Part shown: one piece after another, positions 1 to 12,487 of the stretch
Position numbering within the stretch: position 1 is the stretch's first letter
How the letters are laid out: each line of letters starts with the position of its first letter
Origin: Caldisericia bacterium
GTDB taxonomy: Bacteria; Caldisericota; Caldisericia; UBA6126
NCBI GenBank assembly: GCA_023146045.1
Contig: JAGLCW010000131.1
Coordinates: 1 to 46,654, forward strand
Reading direction: 5' to 3'
DNA length: 46,654 bases
Notes under the pieces: generated by a model
Databases searched by the model: none
What the model was told of the DNA's origin: nothing
The model's input: only the letters and a program-made list of their open reading frames with translations
Made by a program: the position numbers and the translations under genes

Positions 1-1118
1 CGTTGAATATAACGAAATCGAATTTCAAATTTTCTTCTTCCTCTATCAATTGACTTTATTGGATCAACTCCAAAAAACCTAGCAAAATTTAGAGAGGCAA
101 ATAACAAATCACCCAGTTCTTGTTCAACTTCTCTTTTATTCCCTGTGTTAGCTGCCTCCTTTATTTCGAGACATTCTTCTATCATTTTTTCTATAATATC
201 ATCAGATTTTTCCCATTCGTAACCATACTCTGAGGCTTCATTTGATATCCTAACTACAGGTTTTAAATCTACAGAAAAATCCTTTTCTTCTTCAGATTTT
301 TTTGTTTCGATTTGCTTTAGGTTTGTCCACTGATTAATTACTTGATCAGAAGACAATTCGTTACCAATTCTAAAAACATGTGGATGTCTAAATACTAATT
401 TATTTATCATATATAAAACTGAATCGTAAATTGAAAATTCACCATCATTCTCAGCAATTTGTGCTTGAATTAACGGTTGGATTAATAGATCACCCAGTTC
501 TTCTTTTAAGTGATCTGAATTCTTTTCTTTAATAGCATCTATGACTTCAAATGATTCATCTAATAATGATGATATTAGAGTTTCATGTGTCTGCTTTCTA
601 TCCCAAGGGCACTTAACTCTAAGAATCTTAATTAATTTTTTTGCATTGAAAAATATTTGGTCATTTTTGTTACTTAGTGCAGGCATCCAATCTTTGCAGT
701 AATAAAGGTACTCTTCTTGTTCTCTCGTCTCTATAGAGCCTGGACGACATCGTCTAACTTCTTTTATCGCATCTTCGGCAGAAAATCCTTTTAACAAAAG
801 AAACAACCCGGCTATGGTACCAGCTCTACCAAGCCCCCCCATGCAATGAACATATACTGGCACTTCACAATAATCGTAAAAAGATAAATTTCTAATTAAT
901 TCTAAAGATTGACTTGCATCTGGAACAGAGTAGTCTTTAACTGGAATATTTAACAGATCAACAGTTTTTTGTTCTAATTCTTTACTAAAATAATCTGTTC
1001 CAGTTAAATTTACAACAACTCCTATCGGGTGTAGATTTGGAATGTTTTCTTCTGGTATGCTTGGCCATGGACCAATCATTAATCTATTCTTAACAATCCA
1101 GTTTCCTTTTAAAAACAT
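1..1118 (-). CDS. Dual-specificity phosphatase-MazG fusion (3' end cut by window)
   Basis: The frame is open from an ATG at 1118 to the window edge, so about 372 residues are visible and the C-terminus is cut. Residues about 1-145 look like a cysteine-dependent tyrosine/dual-specificity phosphatase: the P-loop HCMGGLGRAG gives Cys92 and Arg98, and Asp67 in SVPD is a plausible general acid. Residues about 155-250 are a MazG domain (CPWDRKQTHE, then EELGD and HPHVF). Residues about 285-372 are a second MazG half with EECLEI and QELGDLLFA, ending in the RFRYI seen near the end of bacterial MazG, so few residues are missing. MazG hydrolyses nucleoside triphosphates to monophosphates and pyrophosphate; the acidic EExxE/ExxD metal ligands look intact. 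The start overlaps the mfd stop by 10 bases, and GAGAGG lies just upstream, which suggests coupled translation. The fusion is read directly from the sequence; the joint role is unknown. Confidence 0.88.
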   Translation of the reverse strand, partial: MFLKGNWIVKNRLMIGPWPSIPEENIPNLHPIGVVVNLTGTDYFSKELEQKTVDLLNIPVKDYSVPDASQSLELIRNLSFYDYCEVPVYVHCMGGLGRAGTIAGLFLLLKGFSAEDAIKEVRRCRPGSIETREQEEYLYYCKDWMPALSNKNDQIFFNAKKLIKILRVKCPWDRKQTHETLISSLLDESFEVIDAIKEKNSDHLKEELGDLLIQPLIQAQIAENDGEFSIYDSVLYMINKLVFRHPHVFRIGNELSSDQVINQWTNLKQIETKKSEEEKDFSVDLKPVVRISNEASEYGYEWEKSDDIIEKMIEECLEIKEAANTGNKREVEQELGDLLFASLNFARFFGVDPIKSIDRGRRKFEIRFRYIQ

Positions 1119-4100
1119 TTCATTACCTCTCTAATTACTGTGTTGAACTCCATATCTTCTTTTCTCACTGTAAGATATCCTCCGTAAAAATGTACATTAT
1201 TCCCAAATTTCTGACATAAAGAAGATAAACAAGTTGTTGTAATTTTAAATCTTTCTGATTTTTCAAGAAAATAGAAAAATATTAAGTTTCTGTCAAGTTT
1301 CACTTCTTTCATGCCTTTTCCGTAACATAGTATTCTCAAATGAAGGTTTTTGTAAAATTCTTCCATTTGTTTAGGTGCTTTCCCAAATCTGTCTGCATAT
1401 TCTTTAACTAATTTTTTTAACTCCTTTTCTTTTTTTGTTCTAGTTAACTCCTGGTATATCGATAATCTTTCAGCTTCATCCCTAATAAATTCCTCTGGAA
1501 TGAATCCTGTTATTGGAAAATCTGGTAAATCGTCTGAAATATACTCTTTTGTTGGGTTGTTGGATTTTTCAACAGCATCTTTTAACAATTTTACATACAT
1601 ATGGTATCCAACAGACTGTAGATGACCAGATTGAGAAGTTCCAAGGAAATTGCCTGCTCCTCTTATCTCAAGATCTCTCATTGCAATTTTTAACCCTGAT
1701 CCCAATTCAACAAAGTTTTGCATTGCTTTCAATCTTGATGAAGATTTTTGAGACAATGCTTTGTTTGATGGATAAAAGAAATATGCGTATGCTCTTCTAT
1801 TTGATCGCCCAACTCTTCCTCTTAATTGGTACATTTGTGCTAGTCCAAGTCTATCCGAGTTATCTACAATTAATGTATTTACAGTTGGGATATCTATCCC
1901 TGACTCAATAATTGTTGTACAGAGAAGTAAATTTAGTTCTCCTTGTAAAAACTGTGTAATAACCCTGTCAATCGAGTCACCACTCATTCTTCCGTGCCCA
2001 ACACCAATCTTTACATTCGGAAAGAGGTTTTTCAGTCTTTCTTTAACTTCCATGATATCGCTTATTCTGTTGTGTACAAAATACACTTGTCCACCTCTCG
2101 ACAACTCGAATTTTATGGCATTTTTTATTACTTCTTCGTTGTCTTGGAGTACATATGTTTTAACTGGTTTTCTTCCTTCTGGGGAAGTGTCTATTCTTGA
2201 GATAGACCTAACACCGCTCATTGCCATAGACAATGTTCTTGGAATTGGAGTAGCTGTTAATGTCAGTACATCTACGTTTTCTTTTAACATTCTAATTTTT
2301 TCTTTATGCTTTACTCCAAATTTATGCTCTTCATCAATAATAAGAAGTCCCAATTTTTTAAAGTTCATATCCTTCGATAAAAGTCTATGCGTTCCTATAA
2401 CTAAATCAGCTTTCCCTTCAGAAATATCTTTTATGTTGTCTTTAATCTTTTTTGCGTGGACAAGCCTTGACATTTGAACAATTTCTATTGGAAATGGAGC
2501 ATATCTATCTTTAAACGTCTCGTAGTGCTGGTTAGCCAGTATTGTTGTTGGGACTAACAATGCTACTTGAAACCCTTCCATCAATGCCTTAAATGCAGCT
2601 CTAATTGCTACTTCTGTTTTTCCGTAACCAACATCACCTGTAACAATTCTGTCCATAACCTTATCTGATTCCATATCTTGTTTTACATCATTAATTGATG
2701 TTACTTGATCTGGAGTTTCATCATATGGGAAAATTGTTTCCATTTCTTTTTGCCATGGAGTATCTTTTCCAAATTCATATCCTCTTGTGGCTTCTTTTTT
2801 TGCATATAGTGCTACTAATTCTTCAGCAATTGCTTCAATTCCTTTTTTGGCTTTCTTCTTTGTCCTTTCCCATTCTGTTGTTCCTAACGAACTTAGTTTC
2901 ATATTTTGGGAATCACCAATGTATTTGTTAACCATATGCAGTCTTTCTGGTGGTACAAACAATTGATCTCCTCCGTTATATTCCATGAGTAAGAATTCTT
3001 TGGGTTTTTTTTCTGGACCATCTAAAAGTTTTAGCCCCCTATAGACGCCAATACCATAAGAATAATGAACAAGCACATCACCCATGGCAAGATCATCCAC
3101 AGATTTTATCGGAGTACCTTCTCTAAATTTTTTAAAATGAGTGTGTGGTCTTTTCCATCCAAATATTTCTCTGTCCGTCATCAGAGCAAATTTCCTGTCA
3201 GGAAGATAAAACCCTTTGTCCATGTACAAGTCTTCAATTTCAATATTACTGTTAAGACTGTTAAACCCAAAACTATCCAGTATCTCGATTACACGCTTTG
3301 GTTGTTTAGTTGCAATAAATAAAAATCCATCATTTTTTAAATATTGCTTTATAGTTGCCTTAAAATCACCAGCAATTGGAGAATACACTTCTTCCATATG
3401 AATTGCATACTGATCTTCAGATGGGTAATTGGATGGGTTTTGGTTTATCTCAATTATCCTTGGGTATTCTGTGATTTTCTTTTTCAGCTTAGAATAACTA
3501 GAAAAAAGATCAATTGAAACAACTTCTTTTTTTTCTAATTCAAGTCCATGTACTTCTTCCGCTTCTTTAAAAGTAGCATTTATTGAGTCAAAAACGCGAT
3601 TTGAATCTTCGATAATAACCGTAGAGTAGTCACTCAAATAATCTACAATGGAATATTCTTCGTCTCTAGCAATTGGTAAATAATAAAGGTGGTTTAAAAT
3701 TGAGTTTTTTTGCTTAATTATTTCTAAATCTTGTTCTACAGCATCGCTTGATATTTTTGGATCATTTTCAATCTTACTTTCGATAAATTTTTCTACTTTT
3801 TCTTTTTCATCAATACTACAGGTGAAATGATGCACCGGAATCATCATTGCTAAGTCTGTTTTCTCTATGCTTAATTGTGATACAGGGCTAAAAAATCTTA
3901 TACTTTCAACTTCAGTGTCAAATAATTCAATTCTAACAGGATAAGGATGTGCAGCTGAGAAAACATCTAATATCCCCCCTTTACGCCTAAATTCTCCAAC
4001 TCTATCTACAACATTACAGTTTCTGTAACCCATACAAACAAGTTTTTGGATTAATGTTTCAATAGATTGCTCTTCATTTACACTTATAGAGAAAGAAAAT

Positions 4101-4564
4101 TCCTCAAGATTTCTTGGACTAATAACAGGATTGCATATTGCTTGGGGAGTAGCAATAATTACGCAATCCTCAAAAAGCACATTATAAAGTACATTTAACT
4201 GCTCAGCACTTAGCTCTGGTGGCCGTGGGATCCTTTCATAAGGTGCAGCACCAGTATCTGGAAACATGCAAACCTTTGGAATTAATCCTAATTCTGATAT
4301 TTGTTTCAAAAACGAAAACGTCTTTTGCATTTCAAGATCTGTTGGTACAACAACTAATGACGATTTTTCTCTCTCTAATAGGTTCGAAAGCAATATGTTT
4401 CCAGCAAAACCAACAACATTGTTTATCTTTAGATTGAAGTCTTTCTTGTTTTCAAAAACAGATTCTTTCAAATCTTTTATGCAATCAACTCCATTAAATG
4501 TTGAAATCAGTTTTTTAAAAATTCTTTTTTTAAAATCTTTTTCTTCTTTAAGCATAATAGCCAT
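1109..4564 (-). CDS. mfd: Transcription-repair coupling factor Mfd
   Basis: At 1151 residues this is the usual full length for Mfd, the DNA translocase that removes RNA polymerase stalled at lesions and recruits UvrA. The N-terminal UvrB-like region is about residues 30-350. The RNA polymerase-interacting CarD-like domain follows at about 487-560 (GDVLVHYSYGIGVYRG). The translocase has Walker A GDVGYGKTE (643-651), DEEH (744-747) and TATPIPRT (770-777). The TRCF C-terminal domain comes last. The gene lies 10 bases after pth and overlaps the phosphatase-MazG gene by 10 bases, so the three are probably one transcript. No strong ribosome binding site precedes ATG 4564. An in-frame ATG three codons later is possible, but the difference is trivial. 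All helicase motifs appear intact. Confidence 0.97.
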   Translation of the reverse strand: MAIMLKEEKDFKKRIFKKLISTFNGVDCIKDLKESVFENKKDFNLKINNVVGFAGNILLSNLLEREKSSLVVVPTDLEMQKTFSFLKQISELGLIPKVCMFPDTGAAPYERIPRPPELSAEQLNVLYNVLFEDCVIIATPQAICNPVISPRNLEEFSFSISVNEEQSIETLIQKLVCMGYRNCNVVDRVGEFRRKGGILDVFSAAHPYPVRIELFDTEVESIRFFSPVSQLSIEKTDLAMMIPVHHFTCSIDEKEKVEKFIESKIENDPKISSDAVEQDLEIIKQKNSILNHLYYLPIARDEEYSIVDYLSDYSTVIIEDSNRVFDSINATFKEAEEVHGLELEKKEVVSIDLFSSYSKLKKKITEYPRIIEINQNPSNYPSEDQYAIHMEEVYSPIAGDFKATIKQYLKNDGFLFIATKQPKRVIEILDSFGFNSLNSNIEIEDLYMDKGFYLPDRKFALMTDREIFGWKRPHTHFKKFREGTPIKSVDDLAMGDVLVHYSYGIGVYRGLKLLDGPEKKPKEFLLMEYNGGDQLFVPPERLHMVNKYIGDSQNMKLSSLGTTEWERTKKKAKKGIEAIAEELVALYAKKEATRGYEFGKDTPWQKEMETIFPYDETPDQVTSINDVKQDMESDKVMDRIVTGDVGYGKTEVAIRAAFKALMEGFQVALLVPTTILANQHYETFKDRYAPFPIEIVQMSRLVHAKKIKDNIKDISEGKADLVIGTHRLLSKDMNFKKLGLLIIDEEHKFGVKHKEKIRMLKENVDVLTLTATPIPRTLSMAMSGVRSISRIDTSPEGRKPVKTYVLQDNEEVIKNAIKFELSRGGQVYFVHNRISDIMEVKERLKNLFPNVKIGVGHGRMSGDSIDRVITQFLQGELNLLLCTTIIESGIDIPTVNTLIVDNSDRLGLAQMYQLRGRVGRSNRRAYAYFFYPSNKALSQKSSSRLKAMQNFVELGSGLKIAMRDLEIRGAGNFLGTSQSGHLQSVGYHMYVKLLKDAVEKSNNPTKEYISDDLPDFPITGFIPEEFIRDEAERLSIYQELTRTKKEKELKKLVKEYADRFGKAPKQMEEFYKNLHLRILCYGKGMKEVKLDRNLIFFYFLEKSERFKITTTCLSSLCQKFGNNVHFYGGYLTVRKEDMEFNTVIREVMKCF

Positions 4565-4574
4565 ATTTTATCAA

Positions 4575-5150
4575 TTAATTTGGAATTCTTTTATTAAATT
4601 TGTTTGCTGAAAAAATAAATCCGCTGTCAATTATATCTAAAACTGCAAACATGGCTGTTTCAATAGATTCTTTCAAAGACTTATGCTCACTTCTTAAAAA
4701 ATTATCTAGCACATAGTCAACAGTGCTCTCTGAAGATACCGGTCTATCTATTCCGATTCTTACTCTTAGATACTCAGGCGTTTTTAAATATTGGGTAATA
4801 GATTTTATCCCATTATGTCCTCCAGACCCCCCACCTTTCTTTACTCTTATTGAACCTATTGGTAGATCTAAATCATCGTGTATAACAATTATTTGATCTA
4901 ATTCCAGATGGTATTTATTCATAACATTTCTAATACTTTCACCAGAAAGGTTCATAAAAGTTATGGGCTTACAAAGTAAAAAATTTTCACCACAGATTCT
5001 ATTTATTTTCCCTGTCATTGCTTGACACTCAGCATATCGCAAAGGAGATCTAAATTCTTCAGAAATTTTATCAGCTACCATAAATCCCGCATTGTGCCTC
5101 GTCATAAGGTATTTAACTCCAGGATTTCCGAGTCCAAAAACAGCAAACAT
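4575..5150 (-). CDS. pth: Peptidyl-tRNA hydrolase
   Basis: The 191-residue protein matches bacterial Pth, a cytoplasmic enzyme that cleaves peptidyl-tRNA released from stalled ribosomes. The family signature is present from the N-terminus: GLGNPG with Asn9, TRHNAGF with catalytic His19, TFMNLSG with Asn67, HDDLDLP with Asp92, and GGSGGHNGIKS with Asn113. Length is typical. The ATG at 5150 has a strong GGAGG a few bases upstream. It is the first gene of the pth-mfd-phosphatase/mazG unit and is transcribed away from the gene at 5230. The pth-mfd neighbourhood is common in Firmicutes. Confidence 0.97.
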   Translation of the reverse strand: MFAVFGLGNPGVKYLMTRHNAGFMVADKISEEFRSPLRYAECQAMTGKINRICGENFLLCKPITFMNLSGESIRNVMNKYHLELDQIIVIHDDLDLPIGSIRVKKGGGSGGHNGIKSITQYLKTPEYLRVRIGIDRPVSSESTVDYVLDNFLRSEHKSLKESIETAMFAVLDIIDSGFIFSANKFNKRIPN

Positions 5151-5229: not shown

Positions 5230-6978
5230 ATGAAAAAATTCCTTTTGTGGATACTTATCATTGTTTTGTTGCCGATTTCTTATTTTGCTTACGGGCTTTT
5301 AAGCGATCATATTATTGAATTCAGGTTTTTTTCAAATCCGCAAAATTCACAATTGGTCGAAGAGAATGGAATTGAGTTTAACAGAAATGTTTCGTCTGAA
5401 CCAATAGGTAAACCCGTGGTTCTTTTTATTGCAAATAACCTAACCAAGGAAGAATCTGAATCTTTACTTTTTGCTCAAACAGCACTACAAAAAGGTTCAA
5501 ACGGTGAGTATCCAGTATATCCCATTTTAGACGAAGATCTGTCCCTTGTAAATATTCTAACCGGTGTTTCTCCTAATAGGGGTAACTATTTATCGAATCC
5601 AAACATATCAAATTTAGACAGTATACTTCTTTCATCGCTAGATGCAGGATATAAAGTTGCTTACTTTGGTAACCATCTTCCATCAACTGATTCAGAGTCA
5701 ATGCCTGAAAATGAATCCTTGCAAAATCCCGCTGAAACTCATGAAATAACTATTCCTGCCAGCTTTGTTGAACCAGTTAAAAATATTGAAGAATTGTCGA
5801 GTTGGATGAATGATTATTCGGAACAGTTGAAAAGCTATCAGTTTTTAATTTTCAATATACCTTTTATTTCAGACCCTCTAAACTCAACTGAAAGAGAAAA
5901 AGAAATTGAACTGTTTAATGAAACTATGGAAAACATTTCACTTTCCTGTGGAGAAGAATCCCAATATTACTTTACTTCTCCAATTTCTTTTTCTTATAAT
6001 TTAGTGAGCTTAATGCCAAATTTTGACTTGAAGTCCCCATTTTACGCTTTTGGTAACCACATTAAAGAAAATACATCGAGTATCTCCACCCAACTTGAAA
6101 ATCTTACGTCAACAATTTCGTTCAGCCTAGGACTTTCTCCGTCAAATGAAAATATTGCTACTCCGATTGTACAACTTTTCGATTTACCCGAAGAAACTCT
6201 TTTAGAAAAATACACTTCTTTCGTTAATGGACAAATGATTGGGTATATATCTGTCCTTCTTGATCAAGGAATTGATCAAGAATCAGTTGCTGGTTTTATC
6301 TTACATGCAAATGATTCAATAAATACCATCCCAAGTAAAGATTTATCAGAATTAACAAGCAGAGTAGATTTGTTGCAAGCTGAATTCTTTTCTTTTATGA
6401 ACAACAAGGATTCATCTCAAAAGAAAAAAGAACTTTTGTTTTTTACTATTCTTTTGGCACTTGCAAGCATTCTTTGGTTAGCATTTGCTCCGTGGAATCT
6501 TCGAGGATACTTATACGGAATTGCTTTTACAATAATTTTTGTAATTTTTAACACATTTGTTTTTAAAAATGCACTGACAATCCCAGCACTTTCCGATGTA
6601 TCGGTAGAGTGGTTGTTTCTAAAATACTCTCTTCCATTGATTTGCACAAGCGTTGTTTCTGGAACAATCACAACACTTCTTGGTGGATTTGTATTCAACG
6701 TCGACATTTACAGCATCATAAAAGATCTCAATTGTCAAATTGGAACTTTTATTTTTTTAGTAATCGTGGAAACGTCACTTCTTGGAATCCACTTCGGTTA
6801 TTCTTTCAATGGGTCTATAGAAACTTTTGTTTCCCAATTGATGTTCACTCGAAACGAGACAATAATTATTCTTGCACCAGTTGCTTTACTTATTATGATT
6901 TGCGAATCTTATATTTTTTACAAGATTCTAACAAAGAACAATAAAAGGAAGATTTTAAATGAAACTACACCTGCATAA
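5230..6978 (+). CDS. Membrane protein with degenerate alkaline-phosphatase-like outer domain
   Basis: This 582-residue protein has one N-terminal membrane helix (about 5-22), a large, presumably external domain (about 25-398) and five C-terminal helices (about 402-420, 424-447, 463-490, 505-523, 543-566). Parts of the outer domain resemble the alkaline phosphatase/sulfatase fold: KPVVLFIAN where such enzymes have a first strand ending in Asp-Gly, LSLVNILTGVSPNRGNY like the substrate-site segment, and a late IATPIVQLFDLP like the usual APT-LLGLP strand. The metal-binding Asp after the first strand is replaced by Asn-Asn, so catalysis is doubtful. A GAAGGTGGG ribosome binding site precedes ATG 5230. 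Its last 20 bases overlap the start of the giant secreted protein, so the two are probably co-translated. The function is unknown; the fold assignment is inference. Confidence 0.82.
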   Translation: MKKFLLWILIIVLLPISYFAYGLLSDHIIEFRFFSNPQNSQLVEENGIEFNRNVSSEPIGKPVVLFIANNLTKEESESLLFAQTALQKGSNGEYPVYPILDEDLSLVNILTGVSPNRGNYLSNPNISNLDSILLSSLDAGYKVAYFGNHLPSTDSESMPENESLQNPAETHEITIPASFVEPVKNIEELSSWMNDYSEQLKSYQFLIFNIPFISDPLNSTEREKEIELFNETMENISLSCGEESQYYFTSPISFSYNLVSLMPNFDLKSPFYAFGNHIKENTSSISTQLENLTSTISFSLGLSPSNENIATPIVQLFDLPEETLLEKYTSFVNGQMIGYISVLLDQGIDQESVAGFILHANDSINTIPSKDLSELTSRVDLLQAEFFSFMNNKDSSQKKKELLFFTILLALASILWLAFAPWNLRGYLYGIAFTIIFVIFNTFVFKNALTIPALSDVSVEWLFLKYSLPLICTSVVSGTITTLLGGFVFNVDIYSIIKDLNCQIGTFIFLVIVETSLLGIHFGYSFNGSIETFVSQLMFTRNETIIILAPVALLIMICESYIFYKILTKNNKRKILNETTPA

Positions 6979-9900
6979 AAAAATTCTTTCTCATATTTTC
7001 CTCAGCTTAACACTTATTTTTTCTAGTTTTCCAACAGTTGCTAGAGCTGAAAGTCTAGGCTTTTCTGTAAGATGTACACCAAGTTCAAAAGCTATTCAAG
7101 GAGAGCCTTTATTTTTAACTACTACGTCAAATCAAGATTCTTACTTAACGATAAATGCAGAAACCAAATCAAAAATAATACTTCTTTTTGATAATAAATT
7201 TATAGAAGCTAATGTTGAACAAGAAATTGTCATTCCTATAGTTTATCCGTTAAATGAAAACTTCACTCTTTCATTCCACTTAAAAAATATCGACTCAACA
7301 GATTCAACAGATTTCTCAAAAGACTTTACTGTAGAAAACCAAAAAAATGGTGAGGCCTCATTTAAAGGAAGAGTTATAAATGGTAGTTCTTCTCAAAAAA
7401 TTGGTCTCGAAGGGGCTTTCATTGAAGTCATTTCTGGCCCCACTTTCGCATTTACAGAAAGTTGTGACGACGGTTACTTTGAATTCAATCACCTTATCCC
7501 TGGTCCATATAAGTTCAAAATAACTCATTCGTGTACTAATTTAGCGGAAGAAGTAATTATTGAGGTCAAAAAGCAAACCCCATTCTCTGAAATTACTATA
7601 AACCCTCATAATGTTCCAGAGTTTGATTTTTGGATGAATAAATCGTCTGGCTCTAATTATGAGGTTAAAGAAACTGCAACCATATTCATGCGCTCTAAAT
7701 TAAATATGAAGGTTAATCTATTTCTAATTAATGACAAAAACAAAGAACCAATTTTGCTGAATTTCTCATTGCAAAAAGACGAGATAAGCAGGTTTTTTTG
7801 GATTATTCCTACATCAACTAACCTTGGGAAACACTATTTTTCACTCGAACCAGCTGAATCAGGATTGTGCGGATGTGCAAGATATTCTATACAGATTGCA
7901 ACTTCTATCGAAAACAGTGCCCTGATTGGTTGTGTTGTTGTTGACGATAAACCAGTAAAAGGAGTTGATGTATCTTTCCCTTACGAGTATTTGCCACATA
8001 CTAAAACAGATGAATATGGAAAGTTCGAAATAACGGATCTACCTTCTGGAAACTACAATCTAAGATTTACATTGGAAGGCTTTAAAGAAAAAAATATAAA
8101 AAATGTTGATATTGTGAGAAGCCAAATAAATGGACCTATTACGGTTATGATGGAGGCACAGGAAGATAATAAAATCTCGTTTTTACCTTCTAGGTTAGAT
8201 TTCACAACACATGAAAGAAGAAGTAAAACCATCCCGATACTCTGCTTCATGAAAAATGGTTATGCTTCAAACATAAGTATTGAAAAGATTGAAGGTCCTG
8301 ATGGTATATTTTTTTCCTCCGATGCCATTTCAAGCTTGCTTCAAGAAAAACAACTTTTGAGTTTCACTATTAGTGAAACAGTACTTCCTGGAAAACATCA
8401 TGTCAAATTTGAAGTAAATCACAATTCATCAACTCAATTTATTGAGGGTACCGTATATGTTCAAGGATTATCTTCGGGTACTTTTGATGGATCAGTTTCT
8501 CCTCCTGGAATATCCATACCTCAAGGGAAAACTGCAAATTATATTTTTTCTGCAGAAAAGTTTACAAACTTCAATGAACGATTATCTATAAGAATTAAAA
8601 ACTTACCTTCATACACGCAGCTAATTTTTGATAAAGAAAAAAAATTCGTTCCTCCATGCGAAATTCCTTTTTCGATTGACACATCATTATCTACTAAAGT
8701 TTTTAATCACGAGATTGAGCTAGAAGTTTTTAGTGGTGATCAAAAAAATATATTTGTTTTCCCACTTAACATCTTTCCAAGAAAAGGGCAAATTACAACA
8801 TGCCCAACAGAAGGTTGGAACCCAATTCTTCAACCAGGAAAAGAATCATCGTTAAGTATTAGTTGCTTTTCCACAAGTGGTTTTTCGCAAAATGTTAGGC
8901 TAAACAAAGATTATGGACCAGACTGGGTCTCAATAAAAAAACACGATATTGGTTCTGTAACAAAAAAACCAATTTCCACGCAAATCAACTTCTCTCCACC
9001 AGATGACATACTTATAGGTGGGTATCCTTATTCAATAAGCTTTACATATGGAGAGAACAACGAAGAATACAAAAAATTCTCTGGTCAAATCTATATTCAA
9101 AAAGCCAACCCTAAGGCTCCAATAAATGCACGTGGTAAATTTATTGCTGAAGGAAACAGTATTATTCTCACATGGGATCCTCCAATTGAAGATGATCTAA
9201 ATATTATTGGGTACAACGTATATAGAAGTTTGCACTATCCGGCATTATCTAACTCACATCCTTTGAATAGTACTCTTATTTCAGGCATTGAGTTTATTGA
9301 CACTACATTTTTATATGGTGAAAATTATTGGTATGTTGTTAAAGCCGTTTTCCAAGATGGATCAATAAGCTCACCATCTAATACCTCTCAAGTTATAGTC
9401 CCACCGAAAGAAGATGGTGCAATAATTGTCTCTTTAGAAAAACCATCTGGCTCTTCTTACTATACTAATTCACCAATTCCAGTAAATTTCCAAGCTACTA
9501 TTTATGGGAAAGTTTCGATTTCCTGTTCTGTAAAATATTTAGATGCTCTATTGTTTGAGAAAGCTATTACTCCTGGTACAAAATATAGATGGACTCCAAT
9601 TCTTCCAGAGTTACCTGATTCAAAATGCATCTTAACTATTATTTTTGAAGGAGAAGGAGGATACAAAGAAACTAGAAATTTTTACTTTTTTAGCAAAGAA
9701 CAAAAATCTGGAGCATGCGTTGTAAGCGGTGCACTTTTAAATAGCGTTACAAAAAAACCACTTCATGGGGCACACATTCAAATCATTGATGGTCCAACAT
9801 ATGGCGTAGCTACCACAGATGAAAATGGTAATTTCAGAATAAAACACCTTGCGGTAGGTTTCTACAATTTTTCAATTCAGTATAATGGATCAAATCACTC

Positions 9901-12487
9901 ATTTGAATCTTTTGATGTTGTAAATGGAGAAAACAATCTAGATCCATGGACTATGGAATATTACGAGTTAAAAGATTTCATGGTCTGGTCTGGAAATTTG
10001 CAAAACAACAAAATCCCTCTTTGGATTTTTTCTGAGGATAAAAATACAGCATCAATCTACTGGGAAAAGAATCAAACAAGAAGAATCATCCACAATCAAG
10101 TTCATTTAGATGAATCATCCACCAATTTAATGAAATTTAGTATTCCAGAAGATTTACCTGCTGGCGAGATTCAGATAACCGTTGAACTCAACAATTCAAA
10201 CAGAAAAAAAAGTGTTTTTTATAAAATACCAGAAATAAGAAATGATACTGATATTATTTTTGGGTATGTTAAAAACTTGGATGGGCTACCATTAAAAGAA
10301 GCTGTAGTAAATGGGAATAGCGTAAACGAGTGGGGCTACTTTGAATTTCACAATGAGAATGTGAACAAACTAGAAGTTTCAGCTCCATACTACAAATCAA
10401 AAATACAAGCAGTGGAATCGACGTCCAATGAAGTATCTATATATTTAGAAAAAAATATTGGCTCACTTTACCATTCACAGGAAGATATTTTCATAGCAGG
10501 AGATTTCAATAACTTTGTTTTCCAGTGGTCAATTAAAGATGGATGGATAACACTAAATGACATCCAACTATTCATTGCAAACGAATTACCAGAATATGAG
10601 ATTAGAACTTTAAACTGTAATCCAGACGTAATATACACATTAAAATACAACAACATACTAAGGGAACAGCTAACTGAAACGTCTCATTTGTCCATTAAAA
10701 CGTTTCCAAATGAGAATAATTCTTTTAAGGAAGAGGTTATTATAGATATAAAAATGGGAGTAGATGATAAATTTTTCTTCTCATCAAAACCAAGAATTCC
10801 TGTTTTTAAACAATCACAGAAATCAATTTTGTTGCTTGATATTTATACTTACTCAGATGATGCAAAATTATACCTCGTCAAAAGTTCTTTTGATGAAAAA
10901 TTAAACTCCTTTATAAACTCTACCGAATTAAATCCTGGCAACTCATGTTTACTAACAGTAGACCCTTTATGGGATTCTGATTCAATGCTCAATAGACCTA
11001 TATTGGGGCACATTGTAATTTCCGATCAAAAAAATAACAAAGTTGAGGATATACCAATTCATGTATACTTTCAATCTGATGAACAGCCACATTTTGTTAA
11101 CCCTCAATGGGATCAGGTTTATTATCAAGGATCGCATGCCTCTCACACTTTCTATTTATCGGAGACTCCATCAAAAATATTCTGTAGAGATGTACCTAAT
11201 TTTGTTGATATAGAATTTTTCGATAACAAAGCTATGATTGATATTAAATATGTACCGAATGGTGAAACTGCTGTAGAGATTCCAGTTACAATTAATGATA
11301 AATTCGAAGAAAGACTAATATTAAATGTACAGGGCATTCACAAAATAGAACAATGGCATGCTCCACTAATTTCTGCCAAAAACAAAGAAAAAAGTGTTGA
11401 ATTGTCTATTCAGAACTTGATTGAAGGGAATGTTTACAAAGTAAACAGGTATAAGCAAAATTTCTGCATTGATTGGCAAACAGAGTTTACTCAAGCAAAA
11501 ACATATGTAGATAAAAAGGTTCAAGACAAACAAATCGTTTACTACCAACTATTTACAAGCAATTTATATCTTGAGTCTGGTTGGTCAAATTTAATTAAAA
11601 ATACATTTTCTCAGCTAACACTAAATATTGATTCTAAAGATTCAGAAATAACGAATAAAAGATTCTTTCTTTTTAAAGGTTCTATATCAATTGGAGCAAC
11701 TCTTACTATCAATAGCATACCTATTAACATAACAAAACAAGGACAATTTTCATTCAATGCACCATTAAATGAAGGTTTAAATAAATTTACTTTCAACTTA
11801 GAAGATAAATATGGTAATAAACTTAAAAAAACAATTAGTGTGAATAGAGACACTATATCACCCGAAATAAATGTTTTATCTCCCCCTGGAGATCTTTTTT
11901 ATACCAAAAACACAGAATTGTTAGTATCAATTAAATCTGATCCAGAAAGTACGGTTTTAATAAATGGTACAACCGTAGAAGAGATTAAACCTGGAATATT
12001 TAACATGGTGGTAAATCTCAAAACTGGAGAGAATGTTCTAGAAATTTCTTCAACAGATTTAGCTACAAATGAATCTGCAAAAACAATATCTGTGATTCAG
12101 TATTCTCAAGCTTTTTTGATAGAGCTTCAAATTACCAACAAAGAAGCAAGGGTTAATGGTAAAAAAATACTGCTCGATGTACCTCCACAGGTTATAAGCG
12201 GTAGAACAGTTGTACCTCTACGTTTTATTGCAGAATCCTTTGGAGCTAAAATTGAATGGCTAGCAGAAACAAAAGAGATCAAAATTACTTTGAATCAACA
12301 TAAAATTTACTTGCAAATTGGGAATAACTATGCTGTAGTAAACAACAAAAAAATACTGCTCGATGTACCTCCACAGGTTATAAGCGGTAGAACAGTTGTA
12401 CCTCTACGTTTTATTGCAGAATCCTTTGGAGCTAAAATTGAATGGCTAGCAGAAACAAAAGAGATCAAAATTACTTTGTACGTTTAG
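6959..12487 (+). CDS. Giant multidomain secreted protein with copper-amine-oxidase-N-like C-terminus
   Basis: The 1842-residue protein starts with a signal peptide (cleavage likely after ARA near residue 31). Carboxypeptidase-regulatory-like/SpaA-type beta-sandwich repeats lie at about 134-200, 321-385, 919-990 and 1099-1150; each has an xGxF/Y-F turn such as DENGNFRIKHL. A fibronectin type III domain is at about 719-814 (LTWDPPIEDD) and a weaker one at about 1460-1540. Bacterial Ig-like modules occupy about 1554-1714. The last 120 residues are two tandem copper-amine-oxidase-N-like units (RTVVPLRFIAESFGA), a module often found at the C-terminus of surface proteins of Gram-positive and related anaerobes. 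No catalytic domain is visible. An adhesive, scaffold or surface-layer-associated role is inferred. AAGGAAG precedes ATG 6959, inside the previous gene. A perfect DNA duplication lies at its 3' end. Confidence 0.9.
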   Translation: MKLHLHKKILSHIFLSLTLIFSSFPTVARAESLGFSVRCTPSSKAIQGEPLFLTTTSNQDSYLTINAETKSKIILLFDNKFIEANVEQEIVIPIVYPLNENFTLSFHLKNIDSTDSTDFSKDFTVENQKNGEASFKGRVINGSSSQKIGLEGAFIEVISGPTFAFTESCDDGYFEFNHLIPGPYKFKITHSCTNLAEEVIIEVKKQTPFSEITINPHNVPEFDFWMNKSSGSNYEVKETATIFMRSKLNMKVNLFLINDKNKEPILLNFSLQKDEISRFFWIIPTSTNLGKHYFSLEPAESGLCGCARYSIQIATSIENSALIGCVVVDDKPVKGVDVSFPYEYLPHTKTDEYGKFEITDLPSGNYNLRFTLEGFKEKNIKNVDIVRSQINGPITVMMEAQEDNKISFLPSRLDFTTHERRSKTIPILCFMKNGYASNISIEKIEGPDGIFFSSDAISSLLQEKQLLSFTISETVLPGKHHVKFEVNHNSSTQFIEGTVYVQGLSSGTFDGSVSPPGISIPQGKTANYIFSAEKFTNFNERLSIRIKNLPSYTQLIFDKEKKFVPPCEIPFSIDTSLSTKVFNHEIELEVFSGDQKNIFVFPLNIFPRKGQITTCPTEGWNPILQPGKESSLSISCFSTSGFSQNVRLNKDYGPDWVSIKKHDIGSVTKKPISTQINFSPPDDILIGGYPYSISFTYGENNEEYKKFSGQIYIQKANPKAPINARGKFIAEGNSIILTWDPPIEDDLNIIGYNVYRSLHYPALSNSHPLNSTLISGIEFIDTTFLYGENYWYVVKAVFQDGSISSPSNTSQVIVPPKEDGAIIVSLEKPSGSSYYTNSPIPVNFQATIYGKVSISCSVKYLDALLFEKAITPGTKYRWTPILPELPDSKCILTIIFEGEGGYKETRNFYFFSKEQKSGACVVSGALLNSVTKKPLHGAHIQIIDGPTYGVATTDENGNFRIKHLAVGFYNFSIQYNGSNHSFESFDVVNGENNLDPWTMEYYELKDFMVWSGNLQNNKIPLWIFSEDKNTASIYWEKNQTRRIIHNQVHLDESSTNLMKFSIPEDLPAGEIQITVELNNSNRKKSVFYKIPEIRNDTDIIFGYVKNLDGLPLKEAVVNGNSVNEWGYFEFHNENVNKLEVSAPYYKSKIQAVESTSNEVSIYLEKNIGSLYHSQEDIFIAGDFNNFVFQWSIKDGWITLNDIQLFIANELPEYEIRTLNCNPDVIYTLKYNNILREQLTETSHLSIKTFPNENNSFKEEVIIDIKMGVDDKFFFSSKPRIPVFKQSQKSILLLDIYTYSDDAKLYLVKSSFDEKLNSFINSTELNPGNSCLLTVDPLWDSDSMLNRPILGHIVISDQKNNKVEDIPIHVYFQSDEQPHFVNPQWDQVYYQGSHASHTFYLSETPSKIFCRDVPNFVDIEFFDNKAMIDIKYVPNGETAVEIPVTINDKFEERLILNVQGIHKIEQWHAPLISAKNKEKSVELSIQNLIEGNVYKVNRYKQNFCIDWQTEFTQAKTYVDKKVQDKQIVYYQLFTSNLYLESGWSNLIKNTFSQLTLNIDSKDSEITNKRFFLFKGSISIGATLTINSIPINITKQGQFSFNAPLNEGLNKFTFNLEDKYGNKLKKTISVNRDTISPEINVLSPPGDLFYTKNTELLVSIKSDPESTVLINGTTVEEIKPGIFNMVVNLKTGENVLEISSTDLATNESAKTISVIQYSQAFLIELQITNKEARVNGKKILLDVPPQVISGRTVVPLRFIAESFGAKIEWLAETKEIKITLNQHKIYLQIGNNYAVVNNKKILLDVPPQVISGRTVVPLRFIAESFGAKIEWLAETKEIKITLYV
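12161..12478 (+). repeat. Perfect 132-base direct repeat inside the giant gene
   Basis: Bases 12161-12292 are repeated without a mismatch at 12347-12478, a period of 186 bases (62 codons), separated by 54 diverged bases. Each copy encodes the KILLDVPPQVISGRTVVPLR part of the copper-amine-oxidase-N-like unit through to the KEIKITL end. The absence of even synonymous differences indicates recent duplication or gene conversion. Confidence 0.97.

Follow-up and report, generated by a model that had tools for sequence, protein, structure and literature searches.

The fusion gene and its two enzyme domains

The window, i.e., the whole stretch of 46,654 nucleotides analysed here, is contig 37 of a genome assembly of 1.95 Mb in 253 contigs, and its base 1 is also base 1 of the contig. 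Off this edge runs a continuous open frame (3..1118, minus strand, ATG at 1118, 372 amino acids) that joins a cysteine phosphatase to a MazG; the contig edge is its 3' end. As full-length relatives mostly comprise 391–413 amino acids, the protein of the window lacks some 25–35 C-terminal residues. The gene is present in a single copy: no other match to the fusion protein was seen in its own genome at E 0.001.

The neighbouring mfd (1109..4564, minus strand, 1151 amino acids) is codirectional, and its stop overlaps the start of the fusion gene by 10 nt. Upstream of mfd lies pth (4575..5150, minus strand, 191 amino acids). A Shine-Dalgarno-like AGAGAGG (1126..1132, minus strand), read from the sequence, is placed 7 nt upstream of the ATG within the 3' end of mfd. 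Together with the overlap, it makes translational coupling of the fusion gene to mfd likely. Further away, at 6959–12487, the window holds an open frame of 1842 amino acids with a signal-peptide-like N-terminus and two near-identical repeats at its end (KILLDVPPQVISGRTVVPLRFIAESFGAKIEWLAETKEIKITL), which, judged by eye, recall copper-amine-oxidase N-terminal-like repeats.

The phosphatase domain of the DSP/PTP type comprises amino acids 6–136 (711..1103, minus strand). It matches the Pfam family PTP-SAK (PF22784) at 2.7e-19 (1.1e-19 in a whole-genome search) with 70.1 bits vs a curated cut-off of 27, and DSPc (PF00782) at 1.9e-11 with 44.3 bits vs a cut-off of 33.5. Its P-loop of the HCx5R type, HCMGGLGR (amino acids 91–98; 825..848, minus strand), has the nucleophile Cys92 as well as His91 and Arg98 in place. 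Among solved phosphatases, Tk-PTP of Thermococcus kodakarensis is the nearest (1.4e-18); next come further enzymes of the archaeal type and human DUSP23 (VHZ; 2.6e-11). All eight residues of the P-loop are identical to those of Tk-PTP (HC93MGGLGR99). Asp62 (933..935, minus strand) is aligned to Asp63 of Tk-PTP and is the putative general acid/base; Glu130 in GSIET (729..731, minus strand), aligned to Glu132, is the putative second one. In Tk-PTP, a phosphotyrosine/phosphoserine phosphatase, both residues serve as acid/base (PMC5965843), and the pair of Asp and Glu is common to Tk-PTP, DUSP23 and the N-domain of the fusion. The latter may be classified as a Tk-PTP/DUSP23-type cysteine phosphatase that is predicted to be catalytically active, with the chemistry of the PTP family (PMC8297725). 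AlphaFold2 models, for which no alignment was available, are of low confidence in the phosphatase part and mostly confident in the MazG part.

The MazG part is matched by the NCBIfam model TIGR00444 at 6.7e-53 over amino acids 169–371 (179.9 bits vs a curated cut-off of 148.3) and by Pfam MazG at 4.4e-32 in two stretches. The first half (about amino acids 169–273, CPWDRKQTH ... RHPHVF; 300..614, minus strand) contains the best Pfam stretch, amino acids 176–249, and the metal-site motif E188, E191, E207 and D210 (489..557, minus strand). The second half (about amino acids 290–371; 6..251, minus strand), recognised by Pfam and TIGR00444 and cut at its C-terminus, carries E314, E315, E318, E334 and D337, an EExxE...ExxD motif (108..179, minus strand). 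Both motifs are invariant across 12 fusions. MazGs that have been studied are metal-dependent, dimeric enzymes that cleave NTPs to NMP and PPi (PMC10014863), and NTP pyrophosphohydrolase activity can be predicted for the MazG part, too. A preliminary description of this DNA had seen an intact P-loop phosphatase with Cys92 and Arg98 in frame with two complete MazG halves. The 372-residue open frame bears out the phosphatase (H91-C92-M-G-G-L-G-R98) and the metal motifs of both halves; "complete" is too much said of the second half, which ends 25–35 residues too early.

Occurrence, neighbourhood and origin

Further fusions, which the preliminary description had proposed to seek in genome collections, were found throughout the phylum of the window, most probably the Caldisericota, and in a second one that appears to be the Coprothermobacterota. 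The two phyla have been grouped in one cluster of thermophilic lineages (PMC10356935). Of the 54 genomes of the window's phylum, 53 contain a MazG match, and the one without is an 83%-complete assembly. Nearly all of these MazGs have an N-domain of about 125–165 residues, and the two parts are joined in seven of seven families, contig-end fragments aside. Lineage f4g6 (L045, L056, L057, L058) deviates in having the second MazG half as a separate overlapping frame of 125–126 amino acids; there, the phosphatase is attached to the first half only. The second phylum yields a match in nine of nine genomes. Two of them (f239) encode a complete fusion of 413 amino acids with an intact active site, the others examined an N-terminal extension without P-loop.

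A gene at the end of a contig, in an assembly of 253 contigs, invites the suspicion that a frameshift or an assembly artefact has merged two neighbours. The contig end, however, truncates the C-terminus and not the domain junction. The same continuous frame, moreover, recurs in many independent assemblies at 29–56% identity (45–56% in four further assemblies of the window's order, lower elsewhere in the phylum), and with this the artefact, of practically nil probability, is ruled out. A frameshift, an assembly error or homologues that are always separate, any of which the preliminary description had regarded as fatal to its claim, did not turn up.

Outside the two phyla, a broad sample did not show the fusion. 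A match was obtained in 328 of 386 genomes sampled around G367; all but about 12 of these 328 lie outside both phyla, and among the matches listed there none extends into a phosphatase domain. A contig scan of named genomes with the single fusion protein as query gave no match. With an alignment as query, it gave, among the matches listed, 80 MazG loci of other phyla, which serve as a negative sample. Of these 80 loci, 19 have an N-terminal extension of at least 130 amino acids, actually about 210–300 amino acids long; several of the extensions bear a methylase-like motif, and none of the 19 contains an HCx5R motif. Nor did the open-access literature, searched for MazG with phosphatase and for Caldisericum, yield a published description of the fusion, in line with the earlier remark that the fusion was not known to its author as a described family. 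We thus deal with a real fusion, widespread in two phyla; its architecture, undescribed as far as searched, combines two known families of enzymes. MazG thereby gains a further domain architecture, which two deep-branching phyla have conserved.

Most of the window's phylum has the order pth-mfd-fusion, lineage f4 being an exception; at both f4 loci examined (L040, L045) the mfd neighbourhood is absent. An rqcP-like S4-domain gene (Pfam S4, 1.7e-15) comes next after the fusion gene in lineages f239 and f42 of the second phylum. The corresponding order in Bacillus is pth-mfd-...-yabN-yabO(rqcP). The preliminary description had taken the coupling to mfd and pth as a hint to damage or translation stress. 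The gene order itself is indeed conserved in most of the phylum and resembles that of Bacillus; it reads as inherited operon order, which fits better than a special stress pathway. Also in the second phylum, a gene for a membrane pyrophosphatase lies divergent from the fusion gene (L099, 2405–4417; L116, 6533–8533). Its product could consume PPi made by MazG; the vicinity is possibly a coincidence.

How often the fusion arose may be read from trees of its two parts. In the MazG tree, 22 unfused MazGs fall on one side of a branch with an SH-aLRT of 83 (one change); in the phosphatase tree, 21 P-loop-bearing fused domains are split from 16 stand-alone phosphatases with an SH-aLRT of 87. Both trees would allow for one fusion event only, but SH-aLRT values of 83 and 87 do not settle the matter. 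A Tk-PTP/DUSP23-type phosphatase would then have been gained at the N-terminus of a single-copy housekeeping MazG before the two host phyla diversified. Alternatively, the fusion may have arisen in one phylum and been transferred to the other.

Repeated decay of the phosphatase site

P-loop and Asp states were scored lineage by lineage. The full set of Asp, HCx5R and Glu motifs is kept in f1, f2, f4 (where the Glu motif varies) and f239. HCx5R (FCx5R in f6g8) survives in lineages f6, f7g21, f5g16 and f5g7, from which the standard motifs with Asp and Glu are gone. The P-loop is absent from f3, the rest of f5, f7g19, f7g20, f42 and f250. On the tree this amounts to at least four changes of the P-loop state or, by our own count, to five losses if regain is excluded.

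The lineages without P-loop still have an N-domain of about 110–165 amino acids. Comparison with intact domains by HHalign, in which reversed-sequence controls reached at most 1%, gave 99.9% for f6, 99.8% for f7g21, 99.7% for f5g16 and f5g7, 98.7% for other f5, 95.6% for f7g19 and f7g20, and 62–80% for f42. The f5g13 domain scored 66–90% only through the f5 or the pooled profile and below 1% directly. With about 10% for f250 and less than 1% for f3, phosphatase homology of these two N-domains is without support.

Rates of substitution were compared between close species. Where the P-loop is kept, the dN/dS of the N-domain is 0.09–0.11 in f6 and 0.02 in f239, the latter with synonymous change near saturation. 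In P-loop-less lineages it rises to 0.29–0.57, which exceeds that of the respective MazG part by a factor of about 2–7; f7g20, with 0.29 for the N-domain vs 0.33 for MazG, is an exception. The MazG parts of the same genes range from 0.04 to 0.33. The phosphatase part has thus decayed several times under relaxed constraint, while MazG stayed. Ordinary annotation would miss such N-domains, since a Pfam scan of five P-loop-less members (f5g13, f5g14, f3, f42, f250) finds only MazG-type domains above cut-offs. Complete, partly eroded and lost sites form a natural series for probing the role of the phosphatase. Lineage f6 and a single f1 genome (together G003, G009, G013, G017, G021, G025) possess an extra stand-alone phosphatase of the PTP-SAK family.

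Possible role and related systems

The best overall explanation, to which we assign a probability of roughly 0.45, is a MazG with an ancestral N-terminal phosphatase that most likely acts as a tethered protein-phosphatase regulatory module. The MazG part would convert (d)NTPs to NMP and PPi via its acidic metal sites. The phosphatase part would form a phosphate intermediate at Cys92, with Arg98 holding the phosphate and Asp62 and Glu130 acting as acid/base. Its target, and here we speculate, would most likely be a phosphorylated protein, be it MazG itself or a partner, and the enzyme would oppose Hanks-type kinases. Where kinase signalling shrank, the phosphatase may have become dispensable and left a decaying domain.

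A protein substrate is preferred, at low confidence and on modest evidence, because of the activity of Tk-PTP and the co-occurrence with kinases. The P-loop is accompanied by a Hanks-type kinase in 10 of 12 genera; of the genera devoid of a P-loop, 3 of 13 have a kinase (Fisher p 0.005, uncorrected for phylogeny). On the tree, the association comes down to about two informative independent pairs, which point in the same direction and are far from significance; genome size or lifestyle could also be its cause. There are exceptions both ways: f7g21 and f4g11 have the P-loop and no kinase detected, f3 and f250 have kinases and no P-loop. The genome of the window encodes three kinase domains. Generally, genomes of f1, f2 and f6 (G000–G005, G009, G013, G017, G021, G025) show 2–9 kinase matches each, mostly in frames of 400–1500 amino acids, and those of f5 none or one. 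That in both phyla a protein phosphatase controls a nucleotide house-cleaning enzyme, and that pseudophosphatases arose repeatedly where kinases were lost, is a bolder version that we consider doubtful. If true, it would link kinase signalling to the sanitation of the NTP pool.

The preliminary description had thought of the monophosphate product of MazG or a signalling nucleotide as possible substrates, and neither gained positive evidence in the analysis. In the case of a nucleotidase, MazG would release NMP and PPi, and the phosphatase would strip the last phosphate from the (possibly modified) NMP, which makes disposal irreversible. Consecutive activities often explain why genes are physically fused, NMPs are the products of MazG (PMC10014863), and in the protein of the window both active sites appear intact. 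The sequence, however, gives no hint of nucleotide specificity, and the nearest characterised relative works on phospho-amino acids (PMC5965843). Also, a search limited to the PTP-SAK family found no other such phosphatase in the Caldisericota lineages that lack the P-loop; these have acquired no replacement from this family. We therefore rate such two-step cleaning as rather unlikely. A phosphorylated small signalling molecule, such as an alarmone, a breakdown product of a cyclic nucleotide, or an inositol or sugar phosphate, is an improbable substrate, although a single protein could then reset the NTP pool and a signal. The idea gains from related models, PTP-NADK and PTP-SAK, that are named after couplings to nucleotide metabolism, and from cysteine phosphatases coupled to enzymes of ADP-ribose processing (PMC9503650). 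It suffers from the fact that neither a partner gene nor a motif indicates a particular signal, that a phage MazG leaves (p)ppGpp unhydrolysed (PMC6850273), and that frequent loss speaks against a central signal.

Finally, the N-domain might be mainly structural or regulatory, serving folding, oligomerisation or ligand binding, with catalysis being incidental. Retention of the domain through at least four changes of the P-loop state would suit such a role, as would the different extra N-terminal region of the MazG of Mycobacterium tuberculosis (PMC10014863). But the full motif persists in lineages as distant as f1, f2, f4 and f239, and loss of the P-loop lowers the constraint on the domain, so that we give this explanation a small chance only. 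The tethered protein phosphatase remains our favoured reading.

Comparison with known systems shows what is particular about the fusion. The MazG of the E. coli type (PDB 3cra, matching the fusion at 1.7e-34) likewise consists of two halves with metal-binding motifs, as in amino acids 169–371 of the fusion, but has no phosphatase domain. In PMC10014863, the extra region of the M. tuberculosis enzyme has a length of about 85 residues, and no phosphatase character is ascribed to it. Tk-PTP and DUSP23 are stand-alone phosphatases without MazG. In the coupling of a cysteine phosphatase with an ADP-ribosylglycohydrolase (PMC9503650) and in PTP-NADK (PF22741), the same superfamily meets a nucleotide-handling enzyme, yet the partner is not MazG. 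At locus L100, a frame of 495 amino acids begins with a phosphatase like that of the fusion, and its remainder looks, by eye, like an ADP-ribosylglycohydrolase, in agreement with PMC9503650; at L101 such a phosphatase is fused with a cysteine-rich domain in a frame of 342 amino acids. A further analogy is YabN (NF052436), the fusion of a SAM-dependent methylase with MazG in Firmicutes, which also has an enzyme-type domain before MazG and a similar neighbourhood of pth, mfd and rqcP. The fusion is not a YabN: it scores 206.9 bits vs a cut-off of 525, and its N-domain is a phosphatase instead of a methylase of about 250 amino acids. By this analogy, the fusion reads as the occupant of the usual MazG/YabN slot, with a phosphatase in the place of the methylase.
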